Shown here in pieces: positions 7,876 to 38,260 of a DNA stretch of 41,805 nucleotides. The DNA comes from a bacterium (GTDB taxonomy: Bacteria > Patescibacteriota > Patescibacteriia > Patescibacteriales > GWC2-42-12), in assembly GCA_030650415.1 (NCBI GenBank), contig JAUSEG010000034.1, positions 1 through 41,805 of the forward strand, written 5' to 3'. A program made the position numbers and the translations under genes. The notes under the pieces are model-generated. The model was not told where the DNA came from. It made no database searches and saw only the letters and a program-made list of their open reading frames with translations. The stretch's first letter is position 1, and each line of letters starts with the position of its first letter.

Positions 7876-9249
7876 ATGTTTACTGGAAACAATATTCAAG
7901 CCATCAAGGCGGCTAACGGCCGGCAGCTAATGAAATTATTTTTATTGGCTATTTTGGCCTTGTTTTTACCGGTGGTTTTTAATTTTACCAGCTATTATAT
8001 AATTTCAGCCATTTTATTTATTTTTTTTGGCTGCATATTTTTTAGGGCTAAACTTTATTTACTTTTAATTTTATCGATCCCGGCGCTAGCTTACGGGCAA
8101 TTTATTTATTTCCCCGTTACCGTTAACTGGATTTATGAAGCCAGCTTGACGGAAGTTATTATTATTTTGGTTTTTTCAATATTTCTTATTGATAAATTTA
8201 TTAATGGCGAATTAAAGAAAATTAGAACCAATAGCTTGCTGTATTTACTATTAGCTTATTTGATAATTTCACTGATTTCTTTTATTAATATCGTCGATTT
8301 TCGGCTCTATGTCGCCGGGCTGAAAACCATTGTTTTTAGCTGCTTGGCTTATTGGTTAAGTATAAATTTATTGGACAATAAACAAAAAATTAATTTATTT
8401 ATTTATAGTTTAACCGCCACGGTTTTAATTTTATCCGGCCAAATTTTTATTAAGTTTTATCAAATCGGCTGGTCAAGCAAATTCTTTTTTGAGCGCAGTT
8501 CCATTACTATTACCTTGGGCGCGATCGCGACTACGGCCGCTATTTTAGCTTTAATTTTACCGATAATTTTGTCGCTTTATTTTTATTTAGATCAGAATAA
8601 TAAAATCAAGCCGCTGGTATTTATTGGTTTTGCTATCGGTGCCTTGGCCATGTTTTTAACTTTAGGCAAAGCCGCGATTTTTAGTTTGAGCTTAGGGCTT
8701 GGCTATCTATTCATTAAGCTAAAGAATAAAAGGATTATTTTTACTTTGGCCGCCCTGGTCTTCGTGGTTGGTTGTTTTATTTTTTTTACCTCATTTTTCA
8801 GCGGCTTGCTGGAAAGGCTTAGCTATGCCTTTATTGACGCTAATAGCAAGTTCAGAATTCTTGAGTATCAAACCGGCTGGAAAATTATAAAAGACAATCC
8901 TTGGTTTGGCGTTGGGGCGGGCCAGCAATTATATTATTTTAAAAAGCTATTAAATTTTAACACGGCTCAGCTGGTTAACAATTTTTTTCTTCAGGCCTGG
9001 ATTGATTTTGGCATTATCGGTTTGGCTTTAGCGGTGTTGATGTTTGGCAATATTTACCGAAGAATCGTTAGTCTGGCTAAAAGTCTAAAACCAACCGAGT
9101 TGACGCTTGGTTTTGGTTTTATAGCGGCCTTGATTGTCAGCTTAGTTAACGGTTTAGCCGAAGTTACTTTTTTTGCTTTGCCTTACGCCATAGTTTTTTG
9201 GTCCATAACGGGAATTTTTTATAATTTAGAAAAAGATTCACCCCGTTAG
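7876..9249 (+). CDS. O-antigen ligase / Wzy-like polytopic membrane protein
   Basis: The 457-residue protein is almost all hydrophobic, with about 11-12 membrane spans. Between the later spans lies the segment FRILEYQTGWKIIKDNPWFG followed by VGAGQ, the signature loop of the O-antigen ligase/polymerase (Wzy_C) family. Such proteins join or polymerise lipid-linked oligosaccharides on the outer face of the membrane. It follows the Wzz-like gene by 21 bp, the usual pairing. Ligase and polymerase cannot be told apart from sequence alone. Its last codons and TAG stop lie inside the left arm of a 17-bp inverted repeat (9235-9251), so its C-terminus (DSPR) is encoded by the repeat. Confidence 0.85.
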   Translation: MFTGNNIQAIKAANGRQLMKLFLLAILALFLPVVFNFTSYYIISAILFIFFGCIFFRAKLYLLLILSIPALAYGQFIYFPVTVNWIYEASLTEVIIILVFSIFLIDKFINGELKKIRTNSLLYLLLAYLIISLISFINIVDFRLYVAGLKTIVFSCLAYWLSINLLDNKQKINLFIYSLTATVLILSGQIFIKFYQIGWSSKFFFERSSITITLGAIATTAAILALILPIILSLYFYLDQNNKIKPLVFIGFAIGALAMFLTLGKAAIFSLSLGLGYLFIKLKNKRIIFTLAALVFVVGCFIFFTSFFSGLLERLSYAFIDANSKFRILEYQTGWKIIKDNPWFGVGAGQQLYYFKKLLNFNTAQLVNNFFLQAWIDFGIIGLALAVLMFGNIYRRIVSLAKSLKPTELTLGFGFIAALIVSLVNGLAEVTFFALPYAIVFWSITGIFYNLEKDSPR

Positions 9250-9337
9250 ACTTTGTTATTTTAGTATAAAATTATGTTAAATAAATTATCTAGTCATATA
9301 AAAAATAAATATATAAGCGCGTCTAACGGGGTGAATC
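9235..9337. repeat. Perfect 17-bp inverted repeat enclosing a start codon, copy 1
   Basis: GATTCACCCCGTTAGAC (9235-9251) and its exact reverse complement (9321-9337) flank 69 bp of A/T-rich DNA. The left arm includes the stop of the ligase gene and the right arm lies in the N-terminal codons of the GT2 gene. A diverged copy with the same arms and near-equal length lies at 35918-36018. In RNA it would form a long stem with the GT2 start codon (9274) in the loop. Confidence 0.9.
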
Positions 9338-10158
9338 TGATATCAGTCATAATAATTAATTATAATACTCCGGCCATGACCGAGAAGGCCATCTCCCTGT
9401 TTATAGATTGGGCCGACGGTTTTAATTACGAAATTATTTTAATCGATAATAATTCAAGTGAAAAAATTACTGGCGCGGCTTTAAAGGATTGGCCAATAAA
9501 ATTTATTCAAAATACCGAGAACGTCGGTTTTGCCAAAGCGGTTAATCAGGGAATTAAGGCGGCGAACGGAGATTATATCTTACTTTTGAATTCAGACGCT
9601 TTGGTTGAAGAAGCTACCGTTAAAAATATGCTGGTATATCTGAAAACTAAAATCCGGGCGGGAATTATCGGGCCGAAGTTTATTTATCCGGATGGGCGAA
9701 ATCAGATCAGTTCGGGTAAATTTCCTAATTTTTGGCGGGAATTTTTCCGTTTATTCATGCTAAACAGGCTTTTGCCGTTTGACGCTTATAACAAAGATTT
9801 TGAAACCGTTAGGCCGGTGGATCGGGTAAGCGGCGGCTGCATGCTGATTAAGCGCGAAGTTATTAATCAGATTGGCTTATTTGACGAAGGTTATTTTTTC
9901 GGCGCCGAAGATATGGATTTTTGCCTGCGCGCCGGAAAATTTGGCTGGCAAACGGTTTATTATCCTTTGGTGAAGTTAGTCCATTATCATAGCTTTTCAT
10001 CGGGCGGCCGGAAAGCGATTCGGACGATAAAATTAGAAAGAAACAGCCTTGATTATTTTTTTAAGAAAAATTTTCCTAAAAAAATAATTTCACGGGTTTT
10101 GATTTGGCAAATGCATAATTTAAAAATTTTAGCCTTTAATTTATTGGGCTATAAATAG
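9274..10158 (+). CDS. GT2 family glycosyltransferase, rhamnosyltransferase-like
   Basis: The 294-residue protein is a GT-A-fold sugar transferase. The domain begins at about residue 22 with VIIINYNTPAMTEKAI. NVGFAKAVNQGI and the metal-binding LLLNSDALVEE follow, then the FLRL-type stretch VDRVSGGCMLIKREVINQIGLFDEGYF and GAEDMDFCLRAG, all typical of WbbL-like rhamnosyltransferases. There is no membrane span. Two starts are plausible: the ATG at 9274, in the loop of the inverted repeat, or the in-frame GTG at 9331, which is the GGGGTG of the right repeat arm and begins just before the conserved domain. The sugar and acceptor cannot be deduced. Confidence 0.88.
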   Translation: MLNKLSSHIKNKYISASNGVNLISVIIINYNTPAMTEKAISLFIDWADGFNYEIILIDNNSSEKITGAALKDWPIKFIQNTENVGFAKAVNQGIKAANGDYILLLNSDALVEEATVKNMLVYLKTKIRAGIIGPKFIYPDGRNQISSGKFPNFWREFFRLFMLNRLLPFDAYNKDFETVRPVDRVSGGCMLIKREVINQIGLFDEGYFFGAEDMDFCLRAGKFGWQTVYYPLVKLVHYHSFSSGGRKAIRTIKLERNSLDYFFKKNFPKKIISRVLIWQMHNLKILAFNLLGYK

Positions 10159-17170: not shown

Positions 17171-17307
17171 TTGTCATTGCGAGCGACCGAAGGGAGCGCG
17201 GCAATCTCACGAAAGGCAAAAAATAGACGTAATGTGATAGTGGCAAAATTTAATGAATTAAGTTATACGTGAGATTGCTTCGTCGCCGAAGCTCCTCGCA
17301 ATGACAA
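17171..17307. repeat. Palindromic repeat element, family A copy 1
   Basis: The two ends (TTGTCATTGCGAG at 17171 and CTCGCAATGACAA ending at 17307) are inverted repeats of about 40 bp, each bounded inside by GCAATCTCACG / CGTGAGATTGC. The 137-bp element has no gene. It is transcribed in the lexA leader and ends 10 bp before the lexA start. Related copies: 35744-35886 and a half copy at 41603-41640. Confidence 0.9.
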
Positions 17308-17317
17308 CAATAAATAT

Positions 17318-17929
17318 ATGGGAGATAATTTAACCAAGAGACAAAGGCAGATTTTAGATTTTATAACCGAATTTACCGGTGATAAAGGCTACGCGCCGAG
17401 TTTCAGGGAAATCGGTGAACATTTTAACTTATCCAGTCCGGCCACAATTCACGCGCATATCCAGTCGCTTAAGCAAAAGGGCATGCTCAAAACTTCATTT
17501 AACGAGGCGCGGTCAATTGAAATTATTCCGGCCGCGGTAAATTGGACGGCCAGTTTGGAACTGCCCTTAGTCGGGTTAATTACAGCCGGCGAGCCGATTG
17601 AAGCGATTGAAGAAAAAGAAGTTATCGCCGTACCGTCTGATTTCGTGACCGACAGCGCCAACAGCTATGTTTTGCGAGTTAAGGGCGAATCCATGATTGA
17701 TGACGGAATCTTGGACGGCGATTATGTTATCGTCGAAAGGAATCCTTCGCCTCGAGACGGTGATATTGTAGTGGCGCTTTTAAATAATGCTTACGCCACG
17801 TTAAAGAAATTTTACCGCGAACAAAAGAGAATCAGGCTTCAGCCGGCTAATTCAAAGATGAAGCCGATCTACGCGGCTGATCCGCTGATTCAAGGCGTGG
17901 TCAGAGGGGTGATTAGAAAATTCGCTTGA
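17318..17929 (+). CDS. lexA: LexA, SOS-response repressor and self-cleaving protease
   Basis: The 203-residue product is a full-length LexA. Residues 1-68 form the winged helix DNA-binding domain (LTKRQRQILDFI, with recognition helix SSPATIHAHIQSL). The self-cleavage site Ala90-Gly91 lies in GLITAGEPIEA. The peptidase S24 domain holds catalytic Ser125 (VKGESMIDDGI) and Lys163 (YATLKKF), with spacing close to that of Escherichia coli LexA. It represses DNA-damage genes until RecA filaments trigger cleavage. The ATG at 17318 gives the canonical N-terminus. LexA binding sites in this lineage are unknown to me. The metallopeptidase gene follows after 55 bp. Confidence 0.96.
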   Translation: MGDNLTKRQRQILDFITEFTGDKGYAPSFREIGEHFNLSSPATIHAHIQSLKQKGMLKTSFNEARSIEIIPAAVNWTASLELPLVGLITAGEPIEAIEEKEVIAVPSDFVTDSANSYVLRVKGESMIDDGILDGDYVIVERNPSPRDGDIVVALLNNAYATLKKFYREQKRIRLQPANSKMKPIYAADPLIQGVVRGVIRKFA

Positions 17930-34312: not shown

Positions 34313-34443
34313 AAAAAATTTTCAATTTTCAATTTTCAAACAATTTTCAATGAATTAATTTTCAATTTAGTAAAACTTTTTAGAAATAATTGGAAATTAA
34401 GGCATTAAATCATTGTTTAGAAATTGAAAATTAGAAATTTAAA
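34313..34443. repeat. Low-complexity CAATTTT repeat block with inverted ends
   Basis: Copies of ATTTTCA (34317-34350) on the left, with GAAATTGAAAATTAGAAATTT (34421-34441) on the right in inverted sense. It fills the gap between mreB and the next glycosyltransferase gene. Confidence 0.7.
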
Positions 34444-34446
34444 ATT

Positions 34447-35736
34447 ATGGTGATAGGCATTGACGCCAGCCGGGCTAACCGAGAGTTTAAGAGCGGCACC
34501 GAATGGTATTCATATTATTTAATTAGAGAACTGGCTAAAATTGATTCAACCAATCAATATGTTTTATATAGCGATCAGCCGCTAACGGGCGGACTGGCTG
34601 ATTTGATGGATGAAGGCGGCGAAGCTGGCGGCGAGATTAAAATGGAAAACGGCTACCAGAAAATTATGAGTCCGCATAATAATTTCAAGGCCAAAATTTT
34701 AAATTGGCCTCCGGCTTTTCTTTGGACGCAGATTCGCTTGTCTCTGGAAATGCTTTTTTACCCGCCCGAAGCGCTCTTTATTCCGTCTCATACTTTGCCG
34801 GTCGTTCATCCTAAAAAGTCCGTGGTCACAATCCATGACATCGGTTTTGAACGTTTGCGAGAAGTATATAGTTCAGATAAAATCGGATCCGGCCGCGGTT
34901 CAGCCAGCATTTTTTTTGATTTTTTGGCTAAGCTGTTTACTGTAGGAGAATTTCGTTCCAACATACTGGATTACCATAGCTGGTCGACTAAATTTTCGTT
35001 AAAACACGCGAAAAAAATTATCGCGGTTTCTAAGTTTACCAAGCAAGAGCTAATTGATGTTTACCCTGCCTACCGGCAGGCAGGTGGCGCGCCGAGTTCT
35101 AAAATCGAAGTAATCTATAACGGTTTTAACGCCGATTTATATAAGCCGGTTAATGATAAACAAAAAATCAATCGGGTTTTAGATAAATATGGCATTAAAG
35201 CTCCTTACATTTTTTATGTCGGACGGCTGGAAAAGAAAAAAAATATCGCCAGATTGGTTAATGCTTTTGTTAATCTGAGGGAGAAATATAAAGAGCTTAA
35301 TCATAAATTGGTCTTAGTGGGGAACGCCGGCTTAGGTTTCGAGGAAGTTAAATATATAATAGAAGAATTTGATTTTAACAGCGAAGTAATTATTACCGGC
35401 TGGGCGCCGGAGGAAGATTTGCCTTATATCTATAGAGGAGCCTCGCTCTTTGTTTTTCCTTCTCTCTATGAAGGTTTTGGCATCCCTTTACTGCAAGCCA
35501 TGGCTTCGGGCGTGCCTATCGTTGCTTCTGATATACCCGCAGTCTCGGAAATAACCGCCGGTTCGGCCTGGCTTTTTAATCCTAGAGACAGGCGCGATAT
35601 GGCTGAAAAAATCGCCGAGGTTTTATTGGATAATAAGTTGGCCGAGGATTTAGCCGGCAAAGGCAAAATCAGAGTGGAAAACTTCAGTTTAAATAAGTGC
35701 GCCAGAGAAACTTTGGCGGTTATAGAAAAAATATAA
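34447..35736 (+). CDS. GT4 family glycosyltransferase with in-frame palindromic insert
   Basis: This 429-residue GT-B enzyme starts IGIDASRANREFKSGTEWYSYYL, typical of a GT4 subgroup in Patescibacteria. The acceptor domain contains HTLPVVHPKKSVVTIHDIGFE and IIAVSKFTKQELIDVY; the donor domain contains YIFYVGRLEKKKNIARLVNAF and the donor loop FPSLYEGFGIPLLQAMASGVPIVASD. Between these, residues about 206-215 (PAYRQAGGAP) are encoded by a 20-bp palindrome plus flanks (35065-35084) and interrupt the usual short loop before KIEVIYNGF. The insertion keeps the frame and probably bulges on the surface. The gene stands alone between repeat blocks. Confidence 0.9.
   Translation: MVIGIDASRANREFKSGTEWYSYYLIRELAKIDSTNQYVLYSDQPLTGGLADLMDEGGEAGGEIKMENGYQKIMSPHNNFKAKILNWPPAFLWTQIRLSLEMLFYPPEALFIPSHTLPVVHPKKSVVTIHDIGFERLREVYSSDKIGSGRGSASIFFDFLAKLFTVGEFRSNILDYHSWSTKFSLKHAKKIIAVSKFTKQELIDVYPAYRQAGGAPSSKIEVIYNGFNADLYKPVNDKQKINRVLDKYGIKAPYIFYVGRLEKKKNIARLVNAFVNLREKYKELNHKLVLVGNAGLGFEEVKYIIEEFDFNSEVIITGWAPEEDLPYIYRGASLFVFPSLYEGFGIPLLQAMASGVPIVASDIPAVSEITAGSAWLFNPRDRRDMAEKIAEVLLDNKLAEDLAGKGKIRVENFSLNKCARETLAVIEKI
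35065..35084. repeat. 20-bp palindromic repeat inside a coding sequence
   Basis: CCTGCCTACCGGCAGGCAGG: CCTGCC and GGCAGG pair around TACC, with an extra CAGG. It adds roughly the peptide PAYRQAGG in frame. Similar CCTGCC..GGCAGG palindromes, giving LPxGRQAG-like peptides, occur in other Patescibacteria proteins as far as I recall. Confidence 0.7.
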
Positions 35737-35743
35737 ATTTTTA

Positions 35744-35886
35744 TTGTCATTGCGAGGAGCCTGTAATCAGGCGACGCGGCAATCTCACGTATGTCTATAT
35801 TTTATTAAACTTGCCATAATGTAATTATGATTATTCTATACCGTTCGTGAGATTGCTTCGCTCCCCGGCGGTCGCTCGCAATGACA
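35744..35886. repeat. Palindromic repeat element, family A copy 2
   Basis: Starts TTGTCATTGCGAGGAGC and ends GGTCGCTCGCAATGACA, with inner GCAATCTCACG / CGTGAGATTGC as in copy 1. Length is 143 bp. It lies just upstream of the subtilase promoter. Confidence 0.9.
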
Positions 35887-35895
35887 GAGGTTTTG

Positions 35896-35904: not shown

Positions 35905-36018
35905 AAAGATGTTATTTACCCCGTTAGATAGCATCTTTATTTAATTGGGTAAATTTTGTATTAATATTTCTAGCTATAAAATTTTTATGCGGAAGTTATC
36001 GGTAATATCTAATGGGGT
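35905..36018 (+). repeat. Inverted-repeat element enclosing a start codon, copy 2
   Basis: ACCCCGTTAGATA (35918-35930) and TATCTAATGGGGT (36006-36018) are inverted repeats with one change that keeps pairing in RNA as G-U. The arms and spacing match copy 1 (9235-9337). The subtilase ATG at 35987 lies between the arms. A second, smaller hairpin pairs AAAGATG (35905-35911) with CATCTTT (35932-35938). Confidence 0.8.
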
Positions 36019-38260
36019 GAGAAAAAAATCGACATCTTTTTTTAATATTTTTTTAATTGGGATGATTATATCTCTTGGTTCATTGTTTTTCATCGGACAA
36101 AACGCCTTTAGCGATAATGAAAACAATTATACGGCCGATGAAATATTAGTGAAATTCAAGTCGGTTGAACAGCCGAAAATTATTAAGGTAAACACGGCTG
36201 ATTTTTATAAAAAATTAAATTATTATAAGAATTTATCCGAGGTTGAATACGCCGAGCCGGATTATCTTTATTGGGCGTCCATAATGCCGTCCGACACCTA
36301 TTTCAGCAATCAGTGGCATTTGCAAAAAATTAAAGCCATCTCGGCCTGGGACATCGTTCGCGAAAGTCCGGACACTGTTATTGCCATTATTGATTCCGGC
36401 GTGCAAATAGATCATCCGGATTTAGCGAGCAATATCTGGGTAAACAGAAAAGAAATTTCCGGCAACGGCATTGATGATGATAAAAACGGCTTTATAGATG
36501 ATGTAAACGGCTGGGATTTTGTTAATAATTTGCCTGATCCGGCGCCTAAATTTAAAGAAGGCTTTACTGAAGATGGGATTTTACATGGTACAATTATTGC
36601 CGGCATTGCTGCCGCTTCGGGAAATAATGCCGCCGGCGTGGCCGGAGTAACTTGGTCGGCGCGATTAATGCCGCTTAAAGTTTTGGATGATAAAGGCGAA
36701 GGCAGTTCATCAAAAGTTATAAAAGCTATTGATTACGCCATAGCCAACGGCGCCAATATAATTAATTTGAGTTTTGTCGGCTCTGGCTATAGCAAGAGCT
36801 TGGACGAGGCGATTAAACGCGCTTATGACGCCGGTTTGATTGTAGTAGCGGCCGGCGGCAACGAGGTTAATCAGGGCGACGGCTATAATTTAGATCAAGT
36901 TCCCATATATCCGGCCTGCTTAGACGGAGTTAATGGTGAAAATCGAGTAGTCGGGGTGGCCGCCACCGACACGATTGATCAAAAAGCGCCATTTTCAAGT
37001 TTTGGCAATAAATGCATTGATATTTCGGCGCCCGGTATCAGTATTTTTAGCACCGTCGTATATTCGCCGACAAACTATATTAACGATCAGCCCTTTAATA
37101 AATATTATGATGGCTATTGGTCGGGTACTTCGGTGGCCGTACCTATGGTAAGCGCCGGCTTGGCGTTAATTGAAACCGCCAATCCCGGATTAAACCGAGA
37201 TGAAATATTAAAAATATTGTTTAGAACCGCTGATGATATAAATCGATTAAACCCCAATTATTTAAATAAGCTGGGTAGCGGACGGATTAATCTTTTAAGC
37301 GCAGTCGCGGAAGCGAGAAATGTTTTAAAAAATAAATCGGAAAAACTTTTAATTGCTCCTCAAAAAGGTTTAGAGAGTTTAATAAAAATAACCGATCAAG
37401 ACGGCTTGGTTCTAAAAGAATTTTTAGCTTTTGACAAAAAATTTAAAGGCGGAGTGAGTTTGGCTTCCGGTGATATAAATGGCGACGGTTTAGAAGAAAT
37501 CATTGCCGCGGCCGGCCCGGGCGGCGGCCCGCACATAAAAATTTTTAATTTAAATGGCGACTTGAAAAATCAATGGTTTGCTTTTAAAAATAATTTTCGC
37601 GGCGGAGTTAGGGTAGCTTCAACCGATGTTAATCATGACGGAAAAGACGAAATAATCGCGGTTCAAGGGCCTGGCGGCGACTCGGAAGTAAAAATATTTA
37701 ACGAACGCGGCCAACTCTTAGGCTCGTTTTATGCTTATGACAATAAATTTAATGGTGAACTTAATCTCGCTACCGGCGATATCGACGGCGACGGAGAAGA
37801 GGAGATTGCCATCGGTTTGGGCATAGGAAAAATTCCCGAAGTCAGAGTTTTTAAGGCCATCGGCGTTATGCAAAGCCAATTTTTGGCTTATCCGAAAACT
37901 TTTCGCGGCGGGGTCAGAGTGGCGATAGTTAAGGTAGGAGGCGGTCTGCAGAAAAATCGAGCGCAAATCGTAACCGCTCCGGAAAGCGGCGGCGGTCCGC
38001 ATGTTAAATTTTTTGATAAAAAAGGCAGCCTATTATCGCATTTTTTTGCTTTTAACAGCAATTTTCGCGGCGGCGTCAATCTGGCTGAGGCTGATATAAA
38101 TAACGATGGGCTGGATGAAATAATCGCATCGGCCGGTCCGGGCGGCGCGCCCCATGTCAGAGTTTTTGAAGCTAATGGCAAAATCATCGGATCGTTTTAC
38201 GCTTATGAAGAAAATATGAGCGGCGGAGTTAATTCGAGCAGCATAAAAATATTAAAATGA
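35987..38260 (+). CDS. Secreted S8 (subtilisin-like) protease with FG-GAP/VCBS-type repeats
   Basis: The 757-residue protein begins with a signal peptide or anchor (about 21-42; LIGMIISLGSLFFIGQNAFS). A propeptide follows to about 105 (SVEQPKIIKV region, ending SNQWHLQKI), then the S8 domain (about 106-450). The catalytic triad is Asp136 (IAIIDSGVQIDHPDL), His200 (LHGTIIAGIAA) and Ser382 (WSGTSVAVPMVSAG). The C-terminal 280 residues hold five repeats of about 48 residues with Ca-binding-like DINGDGLEEI, DVNHDGKDEI, DIDGDGEEEI and DINNDGLDEI loops and GPGGGPHIKIF strands; the fourth lacks the Asp loop. They probably form a propeller. No wall-anchor motif is seen. I start at the ATG at 35987; an upstream TTG frame (35945) lacks support. 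Confidence 0.9.
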   Translation: MRKLSVISNGVRKKSTSFFNIFLIGMIISLGSLFFIGQNAFSDNENNYTADEILVKFKSVEQPKIIKVNTADFYKKLNYYKNLSEVEYAEPDYLYWASIMPSDTYFSNQWHLQKIKAISAWDIVRESPDTVIAIIDSGVQIDHPDLASNIWVNRKEISGNGIDDDKNGFIDDVNGWDFVNNLPDPAPKFKEGFTEDGILHGTIIAGIAAASGNNAAGVAGVTWSARLMPLKVLDDKGEGSSSKVIKAIDYAIANGANIINLSFVGSGYSKSLDEAIKRAYDAGLIVVAAGGNEVNQGDGYNLDQVPIYPACLDGVNGENRVVGVAATDTIDQKAPFSSFGNKCIDISAPGISIFSTVVYSPTNYINDQPFNKYYDGYWSGTSVAVPMVSAGLALIETANPGLNRDEILKILFRTADDINRLNPNYLNKLGSGRINLLSAVAEARNVLKNKSEKLLIAPQKGLESLIKITDQDGLVLKEFLAFDKKFKGGVSLASGDINGDGLEEIIAAAGPGGGPHIKIFNLNGDLKNQWFAFKNNFRGGVRVASTDVNHDGKDEIIAVQGPGGDSEVKIFNERGQLLGSFYAYDNKFNGELNLATGDIDGDGEEEIAIGLGIGKIPEVRVFKAIGVMQSQFLAYPKTFRGGVRVAIVKVGGGLQKNRAQIVTAPESGGGPHVKFFDKKGSLLSHFFAFNSNFRGGVNLAEADINNDGLDEIIASAGPGGAPHVRVFEANGKIIGSFYAYEENMSGGVNSSSIKILK

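Follow-up and report, generated by a model that had tools for sequence, protein, structure and literature searches.

The palindromes found in the window, meaning the whole stretch of 41,805 nucleotides analysed here, are two insertions of a very small mobile DNA element that occurs in many bacterial phyla. We put the probability at about 0.87 that this is a non-autonomous miniature transposable element, inserting at T|NN|A with a usual duplication of NN and translated at start codons or in frame within genes. Pairing and covariation of the arms, the 2-bp duplication, empty sites and in-frame fusions to host proteins were each observed directly.

Insertions at two start codons

Copy 1 (9240..9332, 93 bp, no strand assigned) has exact arms, ACCCCGTTAGA at 9240..9250 on the left and TCTAACGGGGT at 9322..9332 on the right, likewise without a strand. 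A preliminary description of this DNA had called it a perfect 17-bp inverted repeat; the repeat is perfect, but its length is 18 nt (9234-9251 and 9321-9338, 69 nt apart). The same description held that the repeat joins the end of one gene to the start of the next, and this is the case. Upstream lies a gene for a Wzy_C-type O-antigen ligase (7876..9249, + strand), which receives its stop codon TAG from the TTAG of the left arm, so that the insertion changes the C-terminus to ..KDSPR vs ..KYGASISHNN. Downstream lies a family 2 glycosyltransferase gene (9274..10158, + strand, ATG at 9274), with an N-terminus that comes from, or reads through, copy 1 as MLNKLSSHIKNKYISASNGVN-LISVIIINYN.

Copy 2 (35918..36018, 101 bp, no strand assigned) carries the arms of copy 1 as an 11-nt core with one change, ACCCCGTTAGA at 35918-35928 and TCTAATGGGGT at 36008-36018. 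The change, C to T in the right arm, keeps the pairing in RNA through a G.U pair, and the element encloses a start codon, both as first described. This ATG begins a subtilase (S8) gene (35987..38260, + strand) with the N-terminus MRKLSVISNGVRKKSTSFFNIF. The right arm is read as Ser-Asn-Gly-Val in both copies and offers an in-frame GTG in each, but the shared frame, noted in the preliminary description, is forced. One of the other two frames of TCTAACGGGGTRA contains TAA and the other ends in the stop TRA, so that the SNGV frame alone is open; the LTGF frame is open only if TT comes next.

Sites without the element are available for both copies. The same-genus genome G001 lacks copy 1 and reads GAAAAATAT-GG-AGCTAGTATCAG, compared with GAAAAAGAT-TC-(93 bp)-GA-ATCTGATATCAG in the window's genome, a filled site longer by 95 bp, and its orthologous glycosyltransferase starts at the ATG of the empty site as MELVSVIIINYN. 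For copy 2, the empty sites are GATGTTATGAGAAAAAAATCG in G003 and GATGTTATGAAAAAGAAAATAACG in G002, with the orthologous protein beginning MRKKSTSFFN.., and an orthologue of the copy itself is present in G001 with decayed arms. Because the empty sites lie at the gene's own ATG, both window insertions hit a start codon. A further copy, in the GAPDH gene, is common to the window's genome and G001, with intact arms between flanks that are about 75% identical.

Other repeats also occur in the window. Further repeat families lie at 34317-34446 and 35735-35889 (also 17172-17319), one of which reads CATTGCGAGGAGC..GGCAATCTCACG, and, counted with a third short repeat, they account for 57-79 matches in each same-genus genome; the repeat at 35735-35889, directly upstream of copy 2, resembles CGTC-type REPs. 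An insertion-sequence-like unit at 644-2375 has matching ends, GTCTTCTCTAATGC and GCATTAGAGAAGAC, that are unrelated to the arms of the element. Its rve-domain transposase (716-2089) was rejected as the mobiliser since these terminal repeats differ from the arms. A long low-complexity array of 8-bp TGGTTGTT units at 248-537 overlaps open frames on both strands.

A family across many phyla

Further copies of the arm pattern, sought in the genome and its relatives, revealed a family that is genome-wide and extends across phyla. The pattern CCCCGTTAGA N55-85 TCTAACGGGG occurs 7 times in the window's genome and 0 times in the reversed control, and a tighter version was found in 31 of 380 genomes of the window's class with 0 in the controls. 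The reversed pattern likewise gave 0 in each genome scanned, which rules out a chance inverted repeat. In the window's genome, TCTAACGGGGT is found exactly at 31 sites and with one mismatch at about 48; when facing arms were paired, 49 candidate pairs resulted, or 43 without nested duplicates, for about 40 paired copies.

Genomes were read as stretches around arm matches, and the arm pattern is present in more than 116 such stretches from many phyla. Exact paired arms were scanned in one genome per GTDB species and, among the matches listed, occur in Patescibacteria (many Parcubacteria lineages), Omnitrophota, Phycisphaerae, Cloacimonadota, Nitrospirae, Nitrospinota, Stahlbacteria, KSB1, Bacteroidetes and records labelled Deltaproteobacteria. 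G011, a genome of the same family, shares one identical element with a record labelled Parcubacteria group (L122). Spread of the element by viruses was rejected, as the patterns were found on only 1 and 3 viral contigs.

Target site and duplication

Of 79 distinct elements, 55 have a 2-bp direct repeat at their borders (mean of 10.6 and maximum of 22 in 1000 shuffles), with most copies in the window's genome lacking an exact one, and three-base flanking repeats are not above chance in the same 79. The flanks have T at -3 in 72/79 and A at +3 in 73/79, which gives a target of T|NN|A, preceded by some G and followed by some C. The 2-bp direct repeats within this target are target-site duplications, and the element therefore moves. 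Nearly all paired arms in G011 have complementary NN flanks.

Most copies in the window's genome are flanked by T-TY / RA-A and not by a direct 2-bp repeat, and copy 2 has TT on its left vs GA at the empty site. Simple duplication does not explain either observation. Some of the right flanks, but not the left ones, may stem from G-to-A drift (GTG to GTA, a silent change in the SNGV frame); for the left flanks, one idea is that a donor dinucleotide is carried along.

A donor dinucleotide could also produce the one-sided NN if a serine-type site-specific recombinase with a 2-bp crossover integrated a circle joined at GGGGT-NN-ACCCC, a junction similar to the T-NN-A target, and the G and C around the target do echo the arm tips. 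We nevertheless regard such a recombinase as unlikely: many different NN are duplicated in one genome, and Resolvase-domain genes, present in 12/20 element-bearing vs 9/19 element-free genomes and absent from the element-rich G011, show no association that would make a serine resolvase the mobiliser.

Paired arms and a variable interior

Copies with exact arms are 61-108 bp long, with interiors that vary between elements and arms that can fold into one hairpin stem. The stem has 11 near-fixed outer pairs and 3 covarying ones. Positions 12-14 are complementary in 128, 121 and 105 of 136 non-redundant elements, with several pair types, and pairing falls to chance level from position 15; the stem is thus 14 bp long and is kept by paired changes. 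The outer arm also varies pairwise in the window's genome, where TTTAACAGGGT accompanies ACCCTGTTAAA and TTTCACGGGGT accompanies ACCCCGTGAAA. A 67-nt subfamily has two further hairpins that form a three-way junction, in which 13 of 29 pairs have changes on both sides, 97.4% of cells are paired and the covariation score was reached by 0 of 500 shuffles. Compensatory changes are thus present in both the stem and the three-way junction.

Interiors within one genome differ so much that the recent transposition of a single copy is rarely visible; a near-identical trio in L088/L119 is an exception to this divergence. Composite arrangements were also seen. At L045 (G000:C21:36048-36249), a tandem array with a 51-bp period contains nested elements with TTTAAC and TTTCAC arms, apparently the result of one element inserting into another and then being amplified. 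At L053 (G000:C40:8712-8817), two back-to-back elements lie in frame in one protein (YPVKS..FNGVNPVKS..FNGVK). Two identical copies in L085 (4197-4268 and 6973-7044), in the same orientation with matching flanks and about 2.8 kb apart, enclose an 868-codon open frame.

Probable translation into host proteins

Start-codon copies in the window's genome read M..SNGV or M..FNGV into the downstream proteins, which include uL5, GAPDH, PGK, GatB, a hydrogenase-like protein, glycogen synthase and others. Start-fused proteins in other genomes include adenylate kinase, DprA, SAH hydrolase, glutaredoxin, a response regulator, a SpoU methylase, uL3, ProRS and RsmH; near-identical 67-mers occupy the start codons of both adenylate kinase (L102) and dprA (L137), which are unrelated genes. 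Alignment to solved homologues shows 22-26 clean extra residues in CarB, GlyRS, HypE and a LeuD-type isomerase. Other in-frame internal inserts were found in SecA, a DHODH-domain protein and a GT4 enzyme, and in uL18 in the window's genome. Copies in pilins lie directly before GFTLIE, which yields LTGFTLIEL.

Element lengths favor 1 mod 3 (68 elements, compared with 39 at 2 and 29 at 0; n = 136), and a length of 1 mod 3 combined with the 2-bp duplication keeps the reading frame. Together, the in-frame inserts and the preferred lengths argue that the element is translated through and argue against RNA splicing, and the fused proteins are probably functional.

The preliminary description had also offered a second reading, in which the palindrome is an RNA switch for the initiation of surface genes, here taken as a cis-acting hairpin around the start codons of a regulon. 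Its stem pairs covary, the start codon is in the loop of both window copies and a gene reads outward from 14 of the 15 TCTAAC-arm copies in the window's genome, but we consider a switch very improbable. The same element is also found well inside conserved enzymes, in pilins and in intergenic DNA, compensatory changes are equally present in copies away from gene starts, and both clean empty sites and 2-bp duplications exist. No Rfam match reached the gathering score in 90,769 bases, and promoters are not enriched ahead of the in-element ATG (16 seen, 11.8 expected). The genes fused at their starts are of unrelated functions and mostly housekeeping (uL5, uL3, GAPDH, PGK, GatB, adenylate kinase, ProRS) and not the surface genes supposed; these hosts, together with a frame dictated by stop codons, leave a surface-gene RNA switch without support.

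Phase variation by an invertible promoter between the inverted repeats has almost no credibility. The repeats do surround a start codon and some copies have a -10-like box, but the interior is just 40-90 bp, empty sites lack the repeats, copies occur within protein domains and a general promoter signal was not found. A promoter carried by the element was itself rejected, as the signal was not above shuffles.

Discussion

The evidence points to a miniature transposable element that inserts at T|NN|A and usually duplicates NN. Surviving insertions lie between genes, in in-frame protein loops, in the leader that is cleaved from type IV pilins and, very often, at the start codon itself (AT|GN|A). 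In the last case, the terminal T of the right arm takes the place of the T in ATG, and the protein then begins at a new ATG within the element, or the old ATG is read through, as ..SNGV... Both window copies belong to this start-codon kind. A mobile palindromic element that builds N-termini was the other reading of the preliminary description, and it is upheld by the 2-bp target duplications, both empty sites, the spread across phyla and the fused N-termini.

Mapping of the copies relative to start codons placed 12 of 79 at a start, with the ATG spanning the left junction and the downstream gene open, compared with an expectation, from crude gene calls, of about 0.3 over all T|NN|A sites or about 1 over noncoding plus start sites. 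Survivorship can explain part of this excess because insertions may disappear sooner from noncoding DNA while arms within coding sequence persist longer. Targeting of start codons is also possible. Our tentative proposal, which we think is more probably wrong than right, is that the element is specifically directed to start codons via T|NN|A, perhaps also via the opened DNA of the translation-initiation region, and that by replacing the start it destroys, it spreads across phyla in essential genes at little cost.

We infer that mobilisation is by a protein acting in trans and that transposition proceeds via a folded single strand. No autonomous copy or mobilising enzyme was found among the Y1 neighbourhoods examined or the unpaired arms of six genomes. 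It is improbable, if slightly less so than the serine recombinase, that the element is of REPIN type and that a RAYT transposase (Y1/HUH) moves it as a folded single strand. Conserved inverted ends, a variable spacer and compensatory changes are the architecture of REPINs (PMC3116915), and Y1_Tnp genes are present in 14/20 element-bearing vs 7/19 element-free genomes. However, the window's own genome (98.7% complete) has no Y1_Tnp, the element lacks the GTAG tag and has a 2-bp target duplication, and none of the Y1 genes examined is flanked by arms, so that a RAYT enclosed by the arms was rejected. HUH transposition is not known to make a target duplication. An IS630-type DDE_3 transposase was rejected as it is absent from all 39 genomes tested, and overall the Y1, resolvase and DDE_3 families have no convincing association with the element. 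An integron attC site was rejected because its arms run in the order opposite to the GTTAGA..TCTAAC of the element.

Three known systems allow for comparison. Rickettsia palindromic elements (RPEs) are small mobile palindromes that lie in frame in many unrelated genes and are translated as an extra peptide (PMC10969869); they are about 150 bp, were described from Rickettsia and have a CGTC tag at one end (PMC3733652). The element is likewise an in-frame insertion in unrelated genes, with translation judged from open frames and homology. Unlike RPEs, it measures 61-108 bp, has ACCCC tips and a stem of 14 bp, duplicates 2 bp at T|NN|A and inserts into start codons; its hosts belong to many phyla (Patescibacteria and others), and it has neither the RPE length and CGTC-tagged end nor the Rickettsia host. 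REPINs combine two conserved inverted ends, a variable spacer and a hairpin with compensatory changes, in many copies per genome (PMC3116915), and the element resembles them in each of these respects. REPINs, however, are extragenic and linked to RAYTs, with GTAG-tagged REPs; the element has ACCCC tips in place of the tag, a 2-bp duplication, many intragenic copies and a RAYT that is absent or not adjacent. Correia elements and other bacterial MITEs are short, with terminal inverted repeats, a short target duplication and no internal transposase, often near gene starts (PMC10969869). The element shares each of these features (under 500 bp, 14-bp terminal arms, 2-bp duplication). Correia-type MITEs duplicate TA and carry promoters; the element instead has a free NN, covarying inner stem pairs and a translated insertion. 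It is thus closest to RPEs by action and to REPINs and MITEs by architecture and, because the defining tags of RPEs and REPINs are both missing, is filed as a separate MITE-like family.

Nothing relevant on the arm sequences, or on elements of this kind in Patescibacteria, was found in the literature. In-frame mobile palindromes are known at high frequency from Rickettsia, and whether they occur elsewhere was left open by a 2024 review (PMC10969869). The element described here is a distinct family of them, present in many phyla and in essential genes, with a clear insertion signature. Annotators should be aware that transposon sequence can appear as peptides such as NPVR..SNGV and TPLE..LTGF and as the pilin leader LTGFTLIEL. 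The element offers a countable route to new N-termini and protein loops in bacteria.
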